Origin: Acidobacteriota bacterium
GTDB lineage: Bacteria > Acidobacteriota > Vicinamibacteria > Fen-336
Length of the DNA stretch: 64,000 nt
Assembly (NCBI GenBank): GCA_011526565.1
Contig: WYBL01000026.1
Location: forward strand, 167,928 to 231,927
Reading direction: 5' to 3'
Position 1 is the first letter of the stretch. Each line of letters starts with the position of its first letter. Positions 33,290 to 44,320 of this stretch are shown piece by piece. The position numbers and the translations under genes were made by a program. The notes beneath the pieces were generated by a model. It was not told the DNA's origin and searched no databases. It was given only the letters and a program-made list of their open reading frames with translations.

Positions 33290-33615
33290 GCGGGGCTGGC
33301 GCTGACGCGCTCGTCGTCCTGTGCACGGTGGCGGAGGCGGCGGACGCCGACCGGATCGCGCGCGCCCTCGTCGAGCAGCAACTCGCGGCCTGCGTCCACG
33401 TGCTGCCGCGGGGGACCTCGACCTACCGCTGGCAGGGCGCCGTCGAGCAGGCGCAGGAGCACCAGCTCGTGATCAAGACCGCGGCCGACCGCTTCGAGGC
33501 GCTGCGCGCCGCCCTGGTGCAGCTCCACCCCTACGAGGTCCCGGAACTGATCGCGCTCCCGATCACCGCGGCCCACGCCCCGTACCTGGAGTGGCTCCTG
33601 GAGCAGTCGCGTTGA
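33286..33615 (+). CDS. cutA: CutA-like divalent cation tolerance protein
   Basis: 109 residues. The CutA trimer core is clear: LVVLCTVAEAADADRIARAL, LAACVHVLPRGTSTYRWQG, HQLVIKTAADRF, HPYEVPELIALPI. CutA binds Cu2+ in a ferredoxin-like trimer, and its physiological role is unsettled. GTG start in GTGA overlap with the EVE gene and TTGA overlap with hsdM. Its presence in the restriction chain is unusual; it may simply be a co-transcribed housekeeping gene. Confidence 0.85.
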   Translation: MSGAGADALVVLCTVAEAADADRIARALVEQQLAACVHVLPRGTSTYRWQGAVEQAQEHQLVIKTAADRFEALRAALVQLHPYEVPELIALPITAAHAPYLEWLLEQSR

Positions 33616-35711
33616 CGGTCGAGACCCACGCTCAGCTCGCGTCGTTCGTGTGGAGCATCTGCAACCTGTTGCGGGGGCCGTACAAGCGCAACGAGTACCG
33701 CAAGGTGATCCTGCCGCTGACCGTGCTGCGGCGGTTCGACTGCCTGCTGGCGCCGACCAAGGACAAGGTCCTGGCGAAGAAGGCCGAGCTGAAGGGCAAG
33801 CCCGACAGCGTGATCCTCTCCGTGCTGGGCAAGATCACCGGCCACTCCTTCTACAACACCCACAAGCTGGACTTCGTCCGCCTGCTCGACGCGCCGAACG
33901 ACCTGGCGGCCAACCTCAACGCCTACATCCACGGCTTCTCGCCGAACGTGCGCGAGATCCTCGAGCGCTTCGCGTTCGAGCCGCAGATCGCGCGGATGGC
34001 CGAGAAGAACCTGCTCTACGAGGTGGTCAAGGCCTTCTCCCGCGTCGACCTCTCGCCCGAGCGGGTCGACAACGTGCAGATGGGCTACGTGTTCGAGGAG
34101 CTGATCCGGCTCGGGGCCGAGCAGGCGAACGAGGAGGCCGGGGAGCACTTCACGCCGCGCGAGGTGATCAAGCTGATGGTCAACCTGCTGCTGGCGCCCG
34201 AGCAGGACCTGCGACGCAGCCACGTCGTCAAGACCATCTACGACCCCGCCTGCGGCACGGGCGGCATGCTCTCGGTCGCCGAGCGCTACGTGCGCGAGCT
34301 GAACGCGAAGGCGCGGCCGATGCTGTTCGGCCAGGACTGGAACGACGAGGCGTGGGCCGTCTGCAAGTCGGACATGCTGATCAAGGGCGAGGACGCCGAC
34401 AACATCCGCCTCGGCGACACCTTCACGAAGGACGCCTTCGAGCACGACGAGCGCGGGCGGCGAATCGCGTTCGACTACATGCTCGCCAACCCGCCGTTCG
34501 GCGTCGAGTGGAAGCAGCAGCAGCGGTTCATCGAGAACGAGCGCGACACCCGCGGCTTCGAGGGCCGCTTCGGGGCCGGCACGCCGCGCATCAACGACGG
34601 CTCGCTGCTGTTCCTGCAGCACATGCTGTCGAAGATGCGGGCCGTCGAGAAGGGCGGCAGCCGGATCGCGATCGTGTTCAACGGGTCGCCGCTGTTCACG
34701 GGCGACGCGGGCAGCGGCGAGAGCGAGATCCGCCGCTGGATCCTGGAGAACGACTGGCTCGAGGCGGTGGTCGCCCTGCCCGACCAGCTCTTCTACAACA
34801 CGGGGATCTCGACCTACGTGTGGGTGCTGACCAACCGCAAGGAGCCGCACCGGCGCGGCAAGGTCCAGCTCGTCGACGCCCGGAACTTCTTCGTGAAGAT
34901 GAAGAAGAGCCTGGGCAACAAGCGCAACAAGATCGGGGACAAGGCCGAGGGCGAGCCCGACCAGATCGGCGATATCGCGCAGGTGCACGGTGACGCCCGC
35001 GACGGCGACACCCGGCGGCTCGTGGTCGATGGGGAAGAGAAGGAACTGGTGGTCAGCCGCGTGTTCGACAACGAAGACTTCGGCTACCGCAAGGTCACCG
35101 TCGAGCGCCCGCTGCGGTTGAGCCTCGCGCTGACGCCGGAGCGCCTGGCGCGGCTCGAGCAGGAGAGCGGCTTCCGCAACCTGGCGACGTCCGCGAAGAA
35201 GGCGGAGAAGGCGCGCCAGGCCGAGATCGCGGAGGGCGAAGCGCGGCAGGCGGACCTGCGGGCGCTGCTGGCGGCGCTTGGCGGTGGCGGCGAGCCGAAG
35301 ACCTGGCGCGACCGCGCGGCGTTCCTCGACGACCTGCACGCCGCCGCGAAGGCGCGCGGCCTGCGGCTTGCGGCACCGGAGGTGAAGGCGATCGTCGCGG
35401 CGCTCGGCGAGCGCGACGAGGCGGCCGAGATCTGCCGCGACCGCGACGGCCACCCGGAGCCCGACGCCGACCTGCGCGACACCGAGACGGTGCCGCTGAA
35501 GGAGGACGTGCAGGCCTACTTCGAGCGCGAGGTGCGGCCCCACGTCCCCGACGCCTGGATCGACGAGAGCAAGACCAAGGTCGGCTACGAGATCCCGCTC
35601 AACCGCCACTTCTACCGCTACGAGCCGCCCCGCCCGCTGGAGGCGATCGAGGCCGACATCAAGCAGCTCGAGTCCGAGATCCTGATCCTGCTCAAGGACG
35701 TCACGGCATGA
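33612..35711 (+). CDS. hsdM: type I restriction-modification DNA methyltransferase subunit HsdM
   Basis: 699 residues, longer than most HsdM (about 500) because of a C-terminal helical extension of about 150 residues. HsdM N-terminal domain (LPLTVLRRFDCLLAPTKDKV), SAM-binding motif I at D211 (DPACGTGGML) and motif IV NPPF at 293-296, typical of N6-adenine methylases. The start is TTG, overlapping the cutA stop as TTGA; no better in-frame start precedes the domain. The C-terminus overlaps hsdS by ATGA. The hsdR gene is not next to it but 4.1 kb away, beyond the inserted TA modules. Confidence 0.9.
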   Translation: MTVETHAQLASFVWSICNLLRGPYKRNEYRKVILPLTVLRRFDCLLAPTKDKVLAKKAELKGKPDSVILSVLGKITGHSFYNTHKLDFVRLLDAPNDLAANLNAYIHGFSPNVREILERFAFEPQIARMAEKNLLYEVVKAFSRVDLSPERVDNVQMGYVFEELIRLGAEQANEEAGEHFTPREVIKLMVNLLLAPEQDLRRSHVVKTIYDPACGTGGMLSVAERYVRELNAKARPMLFGQDWNDEAWAVCKSDMLIKGEDADNIRLGDTFTKDAFEHDERGRRIAFDYMLANPPFGVEWKQQQRFIENERDTRGFEGRFGAGTPRINDGSLLFLQHMLSKMRAVEKGGSRIAIVFNGSPLFTGDAGSGESEIRRWILENDWLEAVVALPDQLFYNTGISTYVWVLTNRKEPHRRGKVQLVDARNFFVKMKKSLGNKRNKIGDKAEGEPDQIGDIAQVHGDARDGDTRRLVVDGEEKELVVSRVFDNEDFGYRKVTVERPLRLSLALTPERLARLEQESGFRNLATSAKKAEKARQAEIAEGEARQADLRALLAALGGGGEPKTWRDRAAFLDDLHAAAKARGLRLAAPEVKAIVAALGERDEAAEICRDRDGHPEPDADLRDTETVPLKEDVQAYFEREVRPHVPDAWIDESKTKVGYEIPLNRHFYRYEPPRPLEAIEADIKQLESEILILLKDVTA

Positions 35712-37072
35712 AGTGGAAGCCGTACCCGTCCTACAAGCCCAGCGGCGTGGAGTGGCTGGGTGACGTCCCGGCACACTGGGGAACGCCCCCTCTCTACACG
35801 CGGTACTCGATCGACCTGGGCAAGATGCTGGACGAGAGCCGGATCACTGGCGCGCACCTTGTCCCCTACCTCCGCAATGTCGACGTCCAGTGGGACCGCA
35901 TCAACTTCGAAGACTTGCCCGAGATTGACGTGGCTCCTTCCGAGCGGGGCCGCTTCACTCTTCGCGCTGGTGACCTGCTGGTGTGCGAGGGCGGCGAAGT
36001 AGGGCGCGCCGCGATTGTCCCGCCCGAGGGAGCCGGGTTCGCCTACCAGAAGGCCTTGCATCGCATGCGCCCGCTCCGGCCATCGCTCGATGACCCGCGC
36101 TTTGTCTTCTACCTGCTGTCGGCGGCAGCCTCGTCGGGCGTGTTCCTCGCAGAAGGGAACCCGAACACGATTCCGCACCTGACAGGCGAGAAGCTCCGCC
36201 GCTACCGCTTCCCCATGCCCACGGTTCAGGAACAGACAGCCATTGCGCGCTTCCTGGACGAGACGACGACCAAGCTGGGTCTGCTGGTTGCGAAGAAGCG
36301 GGCGCTGGTCGAGAGGCTGCGCGAGAAGCGCACCGCCCTCATCTCGCGGACGGTCACCCGCGGCCTCCCTCCGGAAGCCGCCCGCGCCGCCGGCCTCGCC
36401 CCCCACCCCAACCTGAAGCCCTCAGGCATCCCCGAGGGCTGGCGCGAGTCTCCCTTGATGCACCTCGTGGAGCCGCGACGACCGATCATGTACGGCATCG
36501 TGCTTCCGGGCCCCGATGTCGACGAAGGTGTCCTGATCGTCAAGGGAGGCGACGTCAAGCCCGGCCGCCTGACCCCCGAGAGCTTGTGCCGGACCACCAT
36601 CGAGATCGCAGCCGGTTACGAACGAAGTCGTTTGCGAGCGGGCGACCTCCTCTTCTCGATTCGCGGAACCGTCGGCGAGGTTGAGATGGTCCCCGCCGGG
36701 ATCGATGGCGCGAACATCACGCAAGACGTGGCGAGAGTCGCGCCGGCGGCCGAAGTGGACGGGCGCTGGCTCCTCCACGCGTTGAAAGCGGAGGCTGTCG
36801 TCGGTCCGCTTCTGGCGCTCAGCCTCGGAGCGGCGGTGCGAGGCGTCAACATCCGGGACCTCAAGCGCGTGCGCATCCCGGTGCCTCCTGTCCGGGAGCA
36901 GCAAGCGATCGCCGAGTACCTCGACCGGGAGACGGCGCGGATCGACCGCCTGGTCGAGAAGGTCGAGGCCGCCATCGAACGCCTTCAGGAGTACCGCCAG
37001 GCCCTGATCACGGCCGCCGTCACCGGCAAGATCGGCGTCCGCGACAAGGCGCCCGGTCCCGCCGCGGCCTGA
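35708..37072 (+). CDS. hsdS: type I restriction-modification specificity subunit HsdS
   Basis: 454 residues, two target-recognition domains with the conserved spacer helices. TRD1 (about 1-200) ends in RFLDETTTKLGLLVAKKRAL; TRD2 (about 230-420) ends in EYLDRETARIDRLVEKVEA; both conserved helices are long and coiled. HsdS dictates the bipartite DNA target of the methylase and nuclease. Start ATG 35708 overlaps the hsdM stop. Base composition is a little lower in GC in the TRD1 half than in hsdM, as is common for exchanged TRDs. Confidence 0.9.
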   Translation: MKWKPYPSYKPSGVEWLGDVPAHWGTPPLYTRYSIDLGKMLDESRITGAHLVPYLRNVDVQWDRINFEDLPEIDVAPSERGRFTLRAGDLLVCEGGEVGRAAIVPPEGAGFAYQKALHRMRPLRPSLDDPRFVFYLLSAAASSGVFLAEGNPNTIPHLTGEKLRRYRFPMPTVQEQTAIARFLDETTTKLGLLVAKKRALVERLREKRTALISRTVTRGLPPEAARAAGLAPHPNLKPSGIPEGWRESPLMHLVEPRRPIMYGIVLPGPDVDEGVLIVKGGDVKPGRLTPESLCRTTIEIAAGYERSRLRAGDLLFSIRGTVGEVEMVPAGIDGANITQDVARVAPAAEVDGRWLLHALKAEAVVGPLLALSLGAAVRGVNIRDLKRVRIPVPPVREQQAIAEYLDRETARIDRLVEKVEAAIERLQEYRQALITAAVTGKIGVRDKAPGPAAA

Positions 37073-37170: not shown

Positions 37171-37518
37171 TTGGAGTTCATCGAGGCGCCGGCCTTCACG
37201 CAGCTCCTGCCGGAGTACCTGACCGATGACGAGTACGCCGAGTTGCAGCAGCACCTGGCTCGCGATCCCGAGGCCGGCGACGTCATCCCGGGCACGGGTG
37301 GCTTTCGTAAGGTTCGCTGGGGTGATGCGCGCCGTGGGCGCGGTCGGCGCGGCGGCCTGCGGGTGATCTACTACTTGTTCCATCAGCCTGACCTGATCTG
37401 GCTCGTGACGCTCTACGGAAAGAGCGAGGTGGCCGACCTGACGCCAAACGAGAGGCGACTCCTGAAGGCGGCGGCAGACGAGGAGAAGCGTCGGCGCTCG
37501 GGACCGCGAAGGAAGTAG
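37171..37518 (+). CDS. higB: HigB/RelE-type toxin
   Basis: 115 residues, size and layout of RelE-superfamily toxins of the HigB2 type: EYLTDDEYAELQQHLARDPE, FRKVRWGDARRGRGRRGG, LRVIYYLFHQPDLIWLVTLYGKSE. These are ribosome-dependent mRNA endonucleases; the basic patch and the final LTLYGKSE core are present. The toxin gene precedes the antitoxin gene, as in higBA. The TTG start is used because an in-frame stop lies just upstream. The tail (KAAADEEKRRRSGPRRK) is an unusual basic extension. Confidence 0.85.
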   Translation: MEFIEAPAFTQLLPEYLTDDEYAELQQHLARDPEAGDVIPGTGGFRKVRWGDARRGRGRRGGLRVIYYLFHQPDLIWLVTLYGKSEVADLTPNERRLLKAAADEEKRRRSGPRRK

Positions 37519-37521
37519 AAG

Positions 37522-37872
37522 ATGCCGAAGAAAAACCAGGGGCGAGCGCCCCGACGTAGCCTCTTTGAGGAGTTGCGGGCCGGCGTCGACGCCATGCGCG
37601 AGCACCGCGAAGGCCGGCTGACCCTGCGCACCCATCGCGTCGAGCCGATCGCCCTCCCGGCCCTCGCTCCCGACACGGTCCGCGAGACCCGCGAGGCGCT
37701 CCACATGTCGCGTCAGGTGTTCGCCTTCAAGCTTGGCGTGAACCCGCGGACCCTCGAGCGCTGGGAGCAGGGTCGCAGCAAGCCTAACGACCAGGCGGCA
37801 GCGCTCATCTGGCTCGTCAAGAAGTACCCCGACACCCTGGACCGGCTGGAGTCCCTGAGCGCGTCAGCCTGA
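37522..37872 (+). CDS. higA: HigA-type helix-turn-helix antitoxin
   Basis: 116 residues. The C-terminal XRE helix-turn-helix is TVRETREALHMSRQVFAFKLG then VNPRTLERWEQGR; the N-terminal 45 residues (LFEELRAGVDAMREHREGRL) are the toxin-binding segment. Antitoxins of this type neutralise HigB and repress their promoter, consistent with the palindrome at 37141. The gene follows the toxin by 3 bp. Confidence 0.85.
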   Translation: MPKKNQGRAPRRSLFEELRAGVDAMREHREGRLTLRTHRVEPIALPALAPDTVRETREALHMSRQVFAFKLGVNPRTLERWEQGRSKPNDQAAALIWLVKKYPDTLDRLESLSASA

Positions 37873-39029: not shown

Positions 39030-39544
39030 ATGACCCTTCCGACCGACAGTGCGCTCACGCCCCTTCAGTGCCCGAAGTGCGGCGCGAGCCTCGGCCTGCC
39101 GGGGCCCCAGGGCGGCTTCGGGCAACGCGTGCAGTGTTCGTACTGCGGAACGCTGTCGGTGCTCGTGATCGGCCGGGAACTCCTCGTCTCCCACGGCGCC
39201 GAGAACGTCTGCGTCGATCGTGGGCGGGTCGGGGTCCGCGCTGCCCGCTTCTGCCAGTGCGGTTCCGCTCTCCGGAAGGAGTGCCGAGCGTGCGGTCGCG
39301 AGACTGCCGTCGACAACGAGCGGTGTCACCGTTGCGGCGTCGCCCTGGCCCCCCCGAGTACTGTGTCCACTGCACCATCACCCGCACCGCCGTGCGGGGC
39401 ACCGCCCGGCTCGACCTCGTGCCTTTCGTCCACACCTTCATGCTGGACGGTGAACTCCCGGACGGCCCGCCCACTCCGCGAGGGGCGCCGCGCCGCCCCC
39501 TCATCGAAGTCGAGCTCCAGCCTGGCTCCTCGCGGCCGGGGTAG
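39030..39544 (+). CDS. zinc-ribbon protein interrupted by a frameshift at a C7 tract
   Basis: Starts ATG after GGGAGTG. The first frame gives CPKCGASLGLPGP, CSYCGTLS, then CQCGSALRKECRACGRE and CHRCGVALAPP: repeated CxxC zinc ribbons. The frame then loses sense at a run of seven C (39349-39355). With one extra C the next frame continues as EYCVHCTITRTAV...FVHTFMLDGEL to the stop at 39542-39544, completing the last CxxC. So a 1-nt indel is present or the read is wrong. It could be slippage-based switching. Corrected length 171 residues. Function unknown. Confidence 0.6.
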
Positions 39545-39588: not shown

Positions 39589-39699
39589 TTACTGATCGGG
39601 AAGCCACGGTCTCGGGTCAGGGAATCCCGGCTATGTATTCCCGATCGGGAATGTCCTGGACTTCTTGGAGACGCCGGCCCATGATTGTCCCGATCGGGA
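39589..39699 (+). promoter_or_regulatory. three GATCGGGA palindromes, 49-bp phased, upstream of hipB
   Basis: Sites: TTACTGATCGGGAA (39589-39602), ATTCCCGATCGGGAAT (39637-39652, perfect) and TCCCGATCGGGA (39688-39699, perfect). Centres are at 39595.5, 39644.5 and 39693.5, exactly 49 bp apart. The last is only 7 bp before the hipB ATG. Regular spacing suggests co-operative binding, likely by HipB. Confidence 0.75.
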
Positions 39700-39706
39700 A
39701 GTTAGT

Positions 39707-39922
39707 ATGGATTCCAGGCAGATCGGTGGCGTCGTGCGGGAGGCTCGGGTAGGGCAGGGGCTGCGCCAGGACCAACTGGCGGCCGCGGCCGGCGTGGGCG
39801 TGCGCTTCGTCGTCGAACTCGAGGCCGGGAAGCCGACCGTGCGCCTCGACAAGGTGCTGGCCGTCCTGGCCGCTCTCGGTTGCCGGGTCGATGTGATTCC
39901 GCCGCCCGCGGAGCGGCGCTGA
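39707..39922 (+). CDS. hipB: HipB-like XRE antitoxin
   Basis: 71 residues with one helix-turn-helix (RQDQLAAAAGVGVRFVVELE then AGKPTVRLDKVLAVLAALG). HipB represses its operon and neutralises HipA. ATG at 39707 is chosen because it directly follows the third palindrome; the longer reading at 39665 would pass through the operators. Gene is 7 bp upstream of hipA. Confidence 0.85.
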   Translation: MDSRQIGGVVREARVGQGLRQDQLAAAAGVGVRFVVELEAGKPTVRLDKVLAVLAALGCRVDVIPPPAERR

Positions 39923-39929
39923 CAGGCCC

Positions 39930-41219
39930 ATGCCGCGCACGCTCGTCGTCTGGTGGGATCGCGCGCGGGTCGGCACGCTGCGCGTCGACAGGCACGGGGC
40001 GATGCGGTTCGCCTATGCCGCGGAATGGCTGTCGGACGGGGCGCGTCCGGCGATCTCGTGTTCGCTGCCGAAGCGGGAGAAGCCGTTCAGTCAGCGGGCG
40101 ACGCGGCCCTTCTTCGCGGGCCTGCTTCCCGAAGACGCGCAGCGAGAAGCGATTGCCGCGGCGCTCGGGATCTCGAGGAGCAACGACTTCGCTTTCCTCG
40201 ACGCGCTCGGGGGCGACGTCGCGGGGGCGCTGTCGCTGTGGCCCGAAGGTGTGACGCCCCCCGGGCCGGCCGGCGATGCGCAGCCGCGCCCACTCGACGA
40301 CGACGCCCTCTCGCAGATCCTCGACGCGCTGCCGACTCGGCCGCTGCTGGCCGGTCGCGACGGGCTCCGGCTCTCTCTCGCCGGCGCGCAATCCAAGTTG
40401 CCCGTCGTGCTGGCGGACGGGCGCGTCGCCCTGCCCGCGCCGGGGCAGCCGACCACGCACATCTTGAAACCGCCGCTCGCGCGCTTCCCACACACGACCG
40501 AGAACGAAGCCTTCGTGATGACGCTGGCCGCCGAGGCGGGGCTCGACGTGGCGCCCGTGGCAGCTCGGGTGATCGCCGGGCGCCCGTACCTGCTGGTCAC
40601 CCGATACGACCGGCGCGTCGACGAGCGGGGTCACGCACGTCGGCTGCACCAGGAAGACTTCTGCCAGGCGCTGGCCAACCCGCCCGAGCGCAAGTACGCG
40701 GCCGAGGGCGGGCCGAACCTGCGGGCGTGCTTCGACCTCGCGCGTCGCGCGACGACGGTTCCGGCGAAGGCGGTGCTGGCGCTGCTCGACGCCGCCGTGT
40801 TCAACGTGATCGCGGGCAACGCCGATGCGCATGGCAAGAACTTCAGCCTGCTCCACGCCGGCGGCGTCGTGCGCCTGGCGCCGCTCTACGACCTGCTCTG
40901 CACCGCGGCGTACCCGGACCTGTCGCCGAGGCTCGCGATGAAGATCGGTGGCGGCGCGACGCTCGACGAGATCGGCCCGGCGCCATGGACCGCGTTCGCG
41001 GAGGAGGCGGGTCTCGCGCCGCCCTTCGTGCGCCGCCGTGTCGGCGAACTTGCGGAGGCCGTCGCCCTTCGAGCGCAAGCCGTTGCGTCGAGTCCGGCGC
41101 TCGTGGGCCTCGACGCGAGCGCCCTCGCAAGCCTCGCGGATCTCGTCGTCGGTCGCGCCCGGCGCGTCGGCCGGAGTGCCGGCCCGACCTCGCCCGGTGG
41201 CAGAATCGGGCATCCATGA
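39930..41219 (+). CDS. hipA: HipA-like serine/threonine kinase toxin
   Basis: 429 residues. N-terminal subdomain (VVWWDRARVGTLRV), conserved loop RLSLAGAQSKLPVV (K156), catalytic GNADAHGKNFS with D299 and N304, and the metal-binding Asp D321 in PLYDLLC. HipA phosphorylates glutamyl-tRNA synthetase and causes growth arrest. All key residues are present, so it is likely active. The final bases overlap hsdR (ATGA), so translation of hsdR depends on this reading frame. Confidence 0.85.
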   Translation: MPRTLVVWWDRARVGTLRVDRHGAMRFAYAAEWLSDGARPAISCSLPKREKPFSQRATRPFFAGLLPEDAQREAIAAALGISRSNDFAFLDALGGDVAGALSLWPEGVTPPGPAGDAQPRPLDDDALSQILDALPTRPLLAGRDGLRLSLAGAQSKLPVVLADGRVALPAPGQPTTHILKPPLARFPHTTENEAFVMTLAAEAGLDVAPVAARVIAGRPYLLVTRYDRRVDERGHARRLHQEDFCQALANPPERKYAAEGGPNLRACFDLARRATTVPAKAVLALLDAAVFNVIAGNADAHGKNFSLLHAGGVVRLAPLYDLLCTAAYPDLSPRLAMKIGGGATLDEIGPAPWTAFAEEAGLAPPFVRRRVGELAEAVALRAQAVASSPALVGLDASALASLADLVVGRARRVGRSAGPTSPGGRIGHP

Positions 41220-44200
41220 GCCAGACCGACGAGCGGGCGTTCGAGAGCTGGCTCGAGGTCGTCCTGTGCGAGGGCTCCGGTTGGGAAGCCGGGTCCGCGG
41301 CCGATTGGGATGTCGAGCGGGCGCTGTTCCCCTCCGTCGTCGTCGGGTTTCTCCAGGACACGCAGGGGCCGCTGTGGGCGCAGATGAAGGCGCTGCACGG
41401 AAGCGCGCTCGACGCGCTCGTCGTCGAATCGCTCGCCAAGGAGCTGGCGCTCAAGGGCGCGCTCCACGTGCTGCGGCACGGCTTCAAGTTCCACGGCAAG
41501 ACGTTCCGCCTGTGCTACTTCAAGCCTGCGCACGGGCTCAACGAGGAGATCCTCGGCCTCTATGCCCGCAACCGCCTGACGCTGACGCGGCAGGTGCGCT
41601 GCCACCCGGGGAAGAACGACACCGTCGACCTGCTGTTCGCCGTCAACGGGCTGCCGGTTGCGACCTGCGAGCTGAAGAACCCGGGCACTGGGCAGACCTG
41701 GCGCCACGCCGTCGCCCAGTACAAGCGCGACCGCGACCCACGGGCGCCGCTGTTCGAGTTCGGCAAGCGCGCGCTCGTCCACTTCGCCGTCGATCCGGAC
41801 GAAGTGCACATGGCCACCCAGTTGCGGCGCGAGGCGACCGTCTTCCTGCCCTTCAACCGGGGGAGCCACCCCGGCCAGGTCCAGTGCGGAAAGGGCAACC
41901 CGCAGCACCCGTCGGGGTACCGCAGCGGCTACTTCTGGGAGGAAGTGCTGCAGCGCGACAGCGTCCTCGACGTCCTCGGCCACTTCATGTTCCTCGAGCG
42001 CTCCGAGGAGCGGGTGGACGACGGGCAGGGCGGCAGGAAGAAGCTCGTGCGCGAGGCGCTGATCTTCCCGCGCTACCACCAGCTCGACGCGGTGCGCGGG
42101 CTGGTGGCCGCGGCGCGCGAGGAGGGGGCGGGCCACAACTACTTGATCCAGCACTCGGCCGGCAGCGGCAAGACCAACAGCATCTCGTGGCTGTCGCACC
42201 GGCTGGCCAGCCTGCACGACGGGCACGACCGCAAGGTCTTCGATTGCGTGATCGTGATCACCGATCGGCGCGTGCTCGACCAGCAGCTCCAGGACGCGAT
42301 CTACCAGATCGAGCATGCGCAGGGCGTCGTCAAGGCGATCGACGAGAACTCGCGCCAGCTCGCCGAGGCGCTGGTCGATGGTACGGCGATCGTGATCACC
42401 ACCCTGCAGAAGTTTCCGTTCGTGCTGCGCGGGCTCCTGCGCGTCGCGGGCGCGGAGACCCACGAGCAGGCCTCGGCCGAGGAACGCCGGCAGGCGGCGG
42501 CGTGGGAAGCGGCGATCGCGGCCCGGCGCTACGCCGTGATCGTGGACGAGGCGCACTCCAGCCAGACGGGGGAGTCGGCGCGCGAGCTGAAGGCCCTGCT
42601 CGGCGCGGCGAGCGCCGGCAGCGGAGAAGACGGCGAGGAAGACTGGGAAGACCGGCTCAGCCAGATCGTCCAGTCGCGCGGCCGGCAGCCGAACCTGAGC
42701 TTCTTCGCGTTCACCGCCACGCCCAAGGGCAAGACCCTGGAGCTGTTCGGCCGCCCGGGCGCGAGCGGCAAGCCGGAGCCGTTCCGGATCTACAGCATGC
42801 GGCAGGCGATCGAGGAGGGCTTCATCCTCGACGTGTTGTCGCACTACACGACGTACGCGACGTTCTACCGGCTCCAGAAGGCGGTCGCCGACGACCCGGC
42901 GCTGCCGAAGAAGCGGGCCGCCCGGGCGCTGGCCAAGTTCATGAGCCTGCACCCGCACAACGTCGAGCAGAAGACCGAGGTGATGGTCGAGCACTTCCGC
43001 GAGCACGTGAAGCACCGCCTCGGCGGGCGCGCGAAGGCGATGCTCGTCACCTCGTCGCGGCTGCACGCGGTGCGCTACAAGCTGGCGTTCGACCGCTACA
43101 TCGCCGAGCAGGGCTACGGCGACGTGCGCACGCTGGTCGCCTTCAGCGGCAGCGTGACGGACCCGGACACCGGGCAGGAGTACACCGAGCCGGGGATGAA
43201 CCTCGACGTCGTCACGGGCCGGCCGATCGGCGAAGCGGCCCTGCCGGAGCGCTTTGAGTCGGCGGACTACCAGCTCCTGCTGGTCGCCAACAAGTACCAG
43301 ACCGGCTTCGACCAGCCGCTGCTGCACACGATGTACGTCGACAAGCGGCTCGACGGCGTGCAGGCGGTGCAGACGCTGTCCCGGCTCAACCGCATGGTGC
43401 CGGGCAAGGACGCGCCGTTCGTGCTCGACTTCGTCAACGACGCCGAGGACATCCTCCGCGCCTTCAAGCCCTACTACGACCGCACGGAGCTCGAAGAGGT
43501 GTCCGACCCGGGGCAGCTCGAGGCGCTGAAGCACGAACTCGACCAGGCCCAGGTCTGGCACCGCAGCGAGGTCGAGGCGTTCGCGCGCGTGTTCTACAAG
43601 CCCGTGACCCAGCAATCGCGCGGCGATCACGCGGAGTTGCAGCGTCACTTGCAGCCCTCGGTCGACCGCTTCAAGGCGATCGCGGAGGCCGAGGACCGCG
43701 AGGCCTTCCGCAACCGCCTGGCGGGCTACGTGCGGCTGTATGCGTTCCTCTCACAGATCATTCCCTGGGGCGACGCTGAGCAAGAGCAGCTCTACAGCTT
43801 CGGCCGCCTGCTGCTCGACCACCTGCCGGCCGAGCGGGACCCCGCGGTGGTGAGTGTCGGCGACGAGGTGGCGCTCCAGTACTACCGCCTGGAGCGGATT
43901 GCCTCGGGGCCGATCGAGGTGCGCGAGGGCGAAGCGCAGTACGTCAAGAGCCCGACGGACCTCGGCACCGGCCGCGCGCAGGACGAGGAGGCCCCGCTCT
44001 CCGCGATCATCGAGGTGCTGAACGAGCGCTTCGGGACCCAGTTCAACGAAGAGGACCGGCTCTTCTTCCAGCAGATCAAGGAGCGGGCCTGCCGCAACGA
44101 GCAGGTGATCGAGACGGCGCTCGCCAACCCGCTCGACCGCTTCGAGATCGGCATCCGGCGCCTGATCGAGGACCTGATGGTCGAGCGGATGGGCGAAAAC

Positions 44201-44320
44201 GACCGCATCGTCACCCGCTACATGGACGACGCGGATTTCCGCGGCTCCGCATTCCCGATCCTGGCCCGCGAGATTTTTGACGCGATCCGCGCCCGGGGCG
44301 CGAGCCGGGGCGACCAGTAG
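41216..44320 (+). CDS. hsdR: type I restriction enzyme motor/nuclease subunit HsdR
   Basis: 1034 residues. N-terminal PD-(D/E)xK nuclease: D138 in TVDLLFAVNG, E152-L-K154 in ATCELKNPG. Walker A K319 in HSAGSGKTNS and DEAH at 444-447, then the rest of a superfamily-2 translocase and a helical C-terminus for HsdM/HsdS contact. HsdR cleaves DNA after translocation. Its ATG overlaps hipA by ATGA, not hsdS, so expression follows the HipBA operon. 9 bp separates its stop from the convergent methyltransferase gene. Confidence 0.9.
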   Translation: MSQTDERAFESWLEVVLCEGSGWEAGSAADWDVERALFPSVVVGFLQDTQGPLWAQMKALHGSALDALVVESLAKELALKGALHVLRHGFKFHGKTFRLCYFKPAHGLNEEILGLYARNRLTLTRQVRCHPGKNDTVDLLFAVNGLPVATCELKNPGTGQTWRHAVAQYKRDRDPRAPLFEFGKRALVHFAVDPDEVHMATQLRREATVFLPFNRGSHPGQVQCGKGNPQHPSGYRSGYFWEEVLQRDSVLDVLGHFMFLERSEERVDDGQGGRKKLVREALIFPRYHQLDAVRGLVAAAREEGAGHNYLIQHSAGSGKTNSISWLSHRLASLHDGHDRKVFDCVIVITDRRVLDQQLQDAIYQIEHAQGVVKAIDENSRQLAEALVDGTAIVITTLQKFPFVLRGLLRVAGAETHEQASAEERRQAAAWEAAIAARRYAVIVDEAHSSQTGESARELKALLGAASAGSGEDGEEDWEDRLSQIVQSRGRQPNLSFFAFTATPKGKTLELFGRPGASGKPEPFRIYSMRQAIEEGFILDVLSHYTTYATFYRLQKAVADDPALPKKRAARALAKFMSLHPHNVEQKTEVMVEHFREHVKHRLGGRAKAMLVTSSRLHAVRYKLAFDRYIAEQGYGDVRTLVAFSGSVTDPDTGQEYTEPGMNLDVVTGRPIGEAALPERFESADYQLLLVANKYQTGFDQPLLHTMYVDKRLDGVQAVQTLSRLNRMVPGKDAPFVLDFVNDAEDILRAFKPYYDRTELEEVSDPGQLEALKHELDQAQVWHRSEVEAFARVFYKPVTQQSRGDHAELQRHLQPSVDRFKAIAEAEDREAFRNRLAGYVRLYAFLSQIIPWGDAEQEQLYSFGRLLLDHLPAERDPAVVSVGDEVALQYYRLERIASGPIEVREGEAQYVKSPTDLGTGRAQDEEAPLSAIIEVLNERFGTQFNEEDRLFFQQIKERACRNEQVIETALANPLDRFEIGIRRLIEDLMVERMGENDRIVTRYMDDADFRGSAFPILAREIFDAIRARGASRGDQ

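Follow-up and report, generated by a model that had tools for sequence, protein, structure and literature searches.

Ahead of the gene pair hipB-hipA in a 64,000-nucleotide stretch of DNA from an Acidobacteriota bacterium (contig WYBL01000026.1; the whole stretch is called the window here) lie three regularly spaced palindromes that are candidate HipB-type operators. The distal one (TTACTGATCGGGAA, 39589..39602) has two mismatches to the consensus and one good half-site; the middle one (TTCCCGATCGGGAA, 39638..39651) is perfect; the proximal one (GTCCCGATCGGGAA, 39687..39700) has a single mismatch and stops 6 bp short of the ATG of hipB. The three centres are where an initial annotation had placed them, at 39595.5, 39644.5 and 39693.5, making both intervals exactly 49 bp. 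The same annotation had taken GATCGGGA for the whole palindrome, but that is only a half-site: the full palindrome is TTCCCGATCGGGAA. With up to three mismatches allowed, the window contains 8 sites where 2.55 are expected, and three of the 8 are crowded into 112 bp. Genome-wide (5.8 Mb), this locus has the sole perfect copy of the 14-mer; copies with one mismatch occur in five other places, the proximal site among them.

The protein encoded next to the array (hipB, 39707..39922, plus strand; 71 amino acids) is an antitoxin with an XRE helix-turn-helix (HTH) domain (HTH_3), scoring 77.2 bits against TIGR03070 (cut-off, 71.65). HipA, encoded directly downstream of it (39930..41219, plus strand), is a kinase toxin of 429 amino acids with an N-terminal Couple_hipA domain (PF13657) and a HipA_C domain (PF07804); its S149, AGAQ motif, K156, D299, H301, K303, N304 and D321 are invariant with E. 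coli HipA. This gene order is that of HipBA toxin-antitoxin modules of the Y4mF class, whose features (a TIGR03070 HipB, a two-domain HipA and regular palindromes over the hipB promoter) are all present. Judged by these matches, the pair, which the initial annotation had named hipB and hipA, is a Y4mF-family hipB with its hipA. The third gene, hsdR (41216..44320, plus strand), specifies a type I restriction subunit of 1034 amino acids, and its start overlaps the hipA stop by 4 bp, in the tetranucleotide ATGA.

Is the 49-bp interval peculiar to this locus? The initial annotation had named loss of the spacing in homologues as one of two outcomes that would refute it; 49-50 bp is kept, and this refutation fails. 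Searched with HipA, 47 of 193 genomes of the class gave matches. Most homologues at about 60-72% HipA identity have the same palindromes, usually three of them, 49-51 bp apart, and the intervening DNA differs. A scan of genome contigs, one genome per species for about 85,000 species, for CCCGATCGGG pairs 35-65 bp apart yielded at least 60 pairs at 49-50 bp; among the matches listed, 56 of 60 lie beside hipB/hipA. Also among the matches listed, spacings of 39-41 bp form a second hip-linked class, in part of which hipB and the toxin gene are a gene's length apart, as in HipBST, and none of the hip-linked pairs falls at 42-47 or 53-59 bp. This distribution bears on the idea that the real ligand is a different XRE regulator, for instance the HigA/MqsA-like protein encoded at 37522-37872. 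A second HTH antitoxin is indeed present in the same locus, but the site pairs go with hipB, at loci from which hsd genes are absent, and we regard the idea as very improbable.

The architecture is best seen in the non-redundant set of hipB promoters that have this operator: 57 of the 67 have at least three sites. The distal spacing is 49 bp in 24 and 50 bp in 24 (48 of the 57), and the proximal spacing 49 bp in 23 and 50 bp in 26 (49 of the 57); "exactly 49 bp" is true of the window locus, while the homologues use 49 or 50 bp about equally often. When the pitch deviates, both intervals usually deviate together (39/39, 39/41, 40/41, 60/61, 72/72). The two intervals within one promoter are 29% identical, and intervals of different promoters 28-30%, which is the chance level; it is therefore length that is kept, and not sequence. 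Could the sites nonetheless be a tandem repeat, or what a recent duplication left behind, and play no part in regulation? Most CCCGATCGGG pairs away from hipBA are tandem repeats, but the hipBA-linked pairs have only the palindrome in common: their flanks are not repeats of one another, and identity between sites is at chance even as spacing is kept across phyla. This explanation is scarcely credible. (Two side observations on spacing: five loci have the rarer hip-linked pitches 60/61, 72/72, 65, 51/41/52 and 41/30/52 bp; and six loci, in Nostocoides japonicum and others, have numerous CCCGATCGGG pairs spaced 42 and 62-64 bp apart, several of them in one actinobacterial genome, with repeated flanks that mark a dispersed repeat family.)

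The array appears to enclose a promoter. A putative -35 element (TGGACT, 39657..39662, plus strand) stands just after the middle site, in the same position as in homologues, and is separated by a 17-bp spacer from a putative -10 element (CATGAT, 39680..39685, plus strand), which lies one base before the proximal operator; +1 would fall on that operator. In homologue promoters the proximal interval has a σ70-like score of 9.20 (7.17 for shuffled sequence) with a spacer of mostly 17 bp, while the score of the distal interval is clearly weaker (7.70). This arrangement suggests another explanation of the spacing: the operators are bound independently, and 49-50 bp merely makes room for a promoter, from -35 to +1, between two of them. 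The proximal interval of most homologues does hold a -35 and a -10. The distal interval, however, has the same 49/50-bp spacing in spite of its lower score; the two intervals usually shift jointly, to 39-41, 60-61 or 72 bp; and viral pairs, which are taken up below, have 49-51 bp between their sites with no σ70 signal in the pairs tested. Promoter packing alone is thus an unlikely account, and co-operative binding is favored over it precisely because the promoter-poor distal interval is equally spaced.

Other HipB families use other pitches. When 19 hipBA promoters selected by protein were searched de novo for palindrome pairs, the 28/39/28-bp array of E. coli K-12 was recovered, and it was checked against TATCCN8GGATA. 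The search also found 1) arrays of 27-28 bp in Citrobacter, Salmonella IncHI2, Cronobacter, Enterobacter, Vibrio and an unverified phage contig; 2) arrays of 49-50 bp in NGR234, Acidovorax, Agrobacterium, Sphingobium and Rhodobacter; and 3) an array of 38-41 bp in Neorhizobium. The palindrome upstream of hipBA on the Rhodobacter plasmid pEJ01 (TTTATCGAAATCGGTAAG) looks unrelated, yet the spacing is still 49/50 bp. Nothing significant emerged from this palindrome search in 2 of the 19 promoters, and at two further loci (L207 and L212) the best pair is not clearly an operator. A pitch of 49 bp amounts to 4.7 helical turns, placing neighboring sites on different faces of the helix, and simple same-face phasing was dropped on account of this non-integer value in favor of a constant offset common to HipB families: because the pitches of the other families (27-28, 39-41, 60-61 and 71-72 bp) fit about 10.5n-3, helical phase seems to be kept across them, and a test by class points the same way (resultant R 0.93, p 0.002).

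Taken together, the arrangement and its conservation make it probable that the palindromes are autoregulatory operators of hipB-hipA(-hsdR), filled co-operatively by HipB or HipBA as a fixed-pitch array. Each site would be bound by dimeric HipB, either by itself or within a HipB2HipA2 complex; neighboring complexes would interact in a geometry that requires 49-50 bp (about 4.7 turns) from center to center, and this fixed geometry would cause the sites to fill as one array. With its -35 just after the middle site, its -10 against the proximal site and its +1 under it, the promoter would be shut by a filled array and opened by loss of HipB, and the level of the restriction subunit would probably be set by the same switch through the 4-bp overlap of hipA and hsdR. 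The initial annotation had proposed co-operative or looped binding by HipB with control of both hipA and hsdR. That proposal is supported in part: for its first half, the equal distal spacing argues for co-operativity; its second half, control of hsdR, is plausible.

Several observations weigh against this interpretation. Fifty base pairs span about 170 Å, so that complexes the size of E. coli HipBA might not touch on straight DNA, and bending or another contact would then be needed. The left arm of the distal site is poor, and in two homologue promoters the intervals differ from each other (41/52 and 30/52). The window promoter is a weak match to consensus, and a strict σ70 consensus scan of the region detected no promoter before hipB. 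The favorable helical-phase test draws on five pitch classes, a small effective sample, and because the sequences are related, p-values are only indicative. Finally, no hsd genes were seen near the 119 genome loci among the matches listed of the CCCGATCGGG pair scan; the link to hsdR is therefore rare.

Rare as it is, that link recurs. In one related genome (G094) hipB-hipA is followed without a gap (TAGATG) by hsdM, then by hsdS and hsdR; a second (G093) has the same hipA-hsdM junction, with hipB and hipA frameshifted. These gapless junctions and the ATGA overlap in the window are what make HipB control of hsdR plausible, and on the evidence of gene order, there are two arrangements in which hipBA is coupled with a type I restriction-modification (R-M) operon. 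In the window the other genes of the R-M locus lie upstream of hipB: hsdM (33612..35711, plus strand; start codon approximate) and hsdS (35708..37072, plus strand). A candidate HipB site upstream of hsdM was rejected: the GATCGGGA at 33557-33564 stands alone as a half-site and lies within a gene. Three reading frames lie between hsdS and hipB in addition to two genes (37171-37872), for a RelE-like toxin and an MqsA/HigA-like HTH antitoxin, that resemble a second toxin-antitoxin pair within the R-M locus. Close upstream of the operators, a double zinc-ribbon reading frame (39030-39544) appears to switch frame within a stretch of seven consecutive C (around 39349-39355), through either a frameshift or an assembly error.

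Pairs of HipB-type operators also occur where there is no hipBA to regulate, at the pitches of the HipB families that they match. CCCGATCGGG pairs in the IMG/VR collection peak at 49-51 and 71-72 bp, and mixed CCCGAGCGGG/CCCGATCGGG viral pairs have the same 49-51-bp peak. In viral contigs such pairs lie between or inside unrelated genes, with no neighboring gene seen to be common to them, and 29 viral records with CCCGATCGGG pairs contain neither HipA_C nor a TIGR03070 match above cut-off. The possibility that phages are generally rich in palindrome pairs spaced 50 bp apart was considered and rejected: two control palindromes and a scrambled TATCC motif give no peak. Viral pairs of the E. coli-type motif, TATCCN8GGATA, are 27-28 bp apart in 104 of 112 non-redundant cases among the matches listed, where they consist nearly always of exactly two sites and are almost never near hipBA; the scrambled motif yields 11 matches and no peak at 27-28 bp. 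Several of these pairs come after an Rz-like spanin gene, and phage mEp237 (NC_019704) has one such pair (42830-42875), 28 bp apart and 5 bp after Rz; lambda has no TATCCN8GGATA pair.

Two attempts to read the viral pairs as RNA or DNA hairpins were not sustained: fold energy is below that of shuffled sequence for 33 of 37 viral pairs, but it is not discriminating because 61 of 78 hipBA pairs are also below shuffled, and the variable cores of the TATCC pairs match as well in direct (3.69 of 8) as in inverted repeat (3.73 of 8). A tentative and rather doubtful proposal is that all HipB families follow one spacing code (n helical turns minus about 3 bp) which phages exploit. Under this proposal the viral pairs would act during infection as decoys made of DNA, to which host HipBA complexes dock, and so would hold the HipA kinase inactive or disturb control of hipBA (and here of hsdR). 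Viral records are often fragments, and the host HipB is known for few of them.

HipBA is the founding persistence module, and assembly of HipA and HipB on operators is tied to the release of HipA. Spacing that varies by only about 1 bp across many phyla, with randomized sequence between the sites, is direct evidence from evolution for a higher-order geometry that is fixed. The coupling to hsdR would tie a persistence toxin to the restriction of foreign DNA, and phage-borne operator pairs, if they truly act on HipBA, would be a DNA-only counter to a toxin.

Regular spacing of HipB operators is in itself known, from E. coli, from Legionella and from a remark on Caulobacter (PMC7029023). The 49-50-bp pitch and the R-M coupling look like new features: a literature search that reached few subscription papers found no report of a 49-50-bp Y4mF class or a common phase rule, and none of operons that join hipBA to hsd genes or of phage pairs in the absence of hipBA. 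E. coli K-12 likewise has several palindromic HipB operators over its hipBA promoter, and their phase is similar to that of the window sites (28 and 39 bp are 2.7 and 3.7 turns). The operator sequence, however, is another one (O1-O4, TATCCN8GGATA, as against TTCCCGATCGGGAA), there are four sites at 28/39/28 bp instead of three at 49/49, and one operator lies, by its sequence, between -35 and -10, whereas the window promoter fits between two operators.

In Legionella pneumophila, HipB gives gel shifts with three evenly spaced hipBST operators (18-nucleotide sites separated by 53-bp gaps, about 71 bp center to center), the proximal one overlapping the predicted promoter and the spacing being kept across species (PMC10653801). 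The likeness extends to all three traits: number and even spacing, a proximal operator at the promoter, and conservation. The authors of that work allow for possible intermediate occupancy, unlike the co-operativity reported for E. coli HipB (PMC10653801). The HipBST toxin is split into HipS and HipT and the operator sequence differs, whereas the window has a single HipA. In a passage on Caulobacter crescentus, the operators of hipBA1 and hipBA2 are likened to the E. coli higher-order complex, in a role that is called speculation (PMC7029023).

Another related system is y4mF-y4mE of Sinorhizobium fredii NGR234 (plasmid pNGR234a): it belongs to the same family, with 58% HipA identity and operators at 49/49 bp, but its operator core is varied (CCCGACCGGG, CCCGAGCGGG) and no hsd genes are annotated within a 7-kb stretch there. 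The C proteins of type II R-M systems (C.AhdI, C.BclI) offer a more distant parallel, as small XRE proteins with weak sequence matches to HipB that are encoded ahead of a restriction gene in one operon; the regulator in the window differs in being an antitoxin, with the gene for its own toxin placed between it and a type I hsdR.
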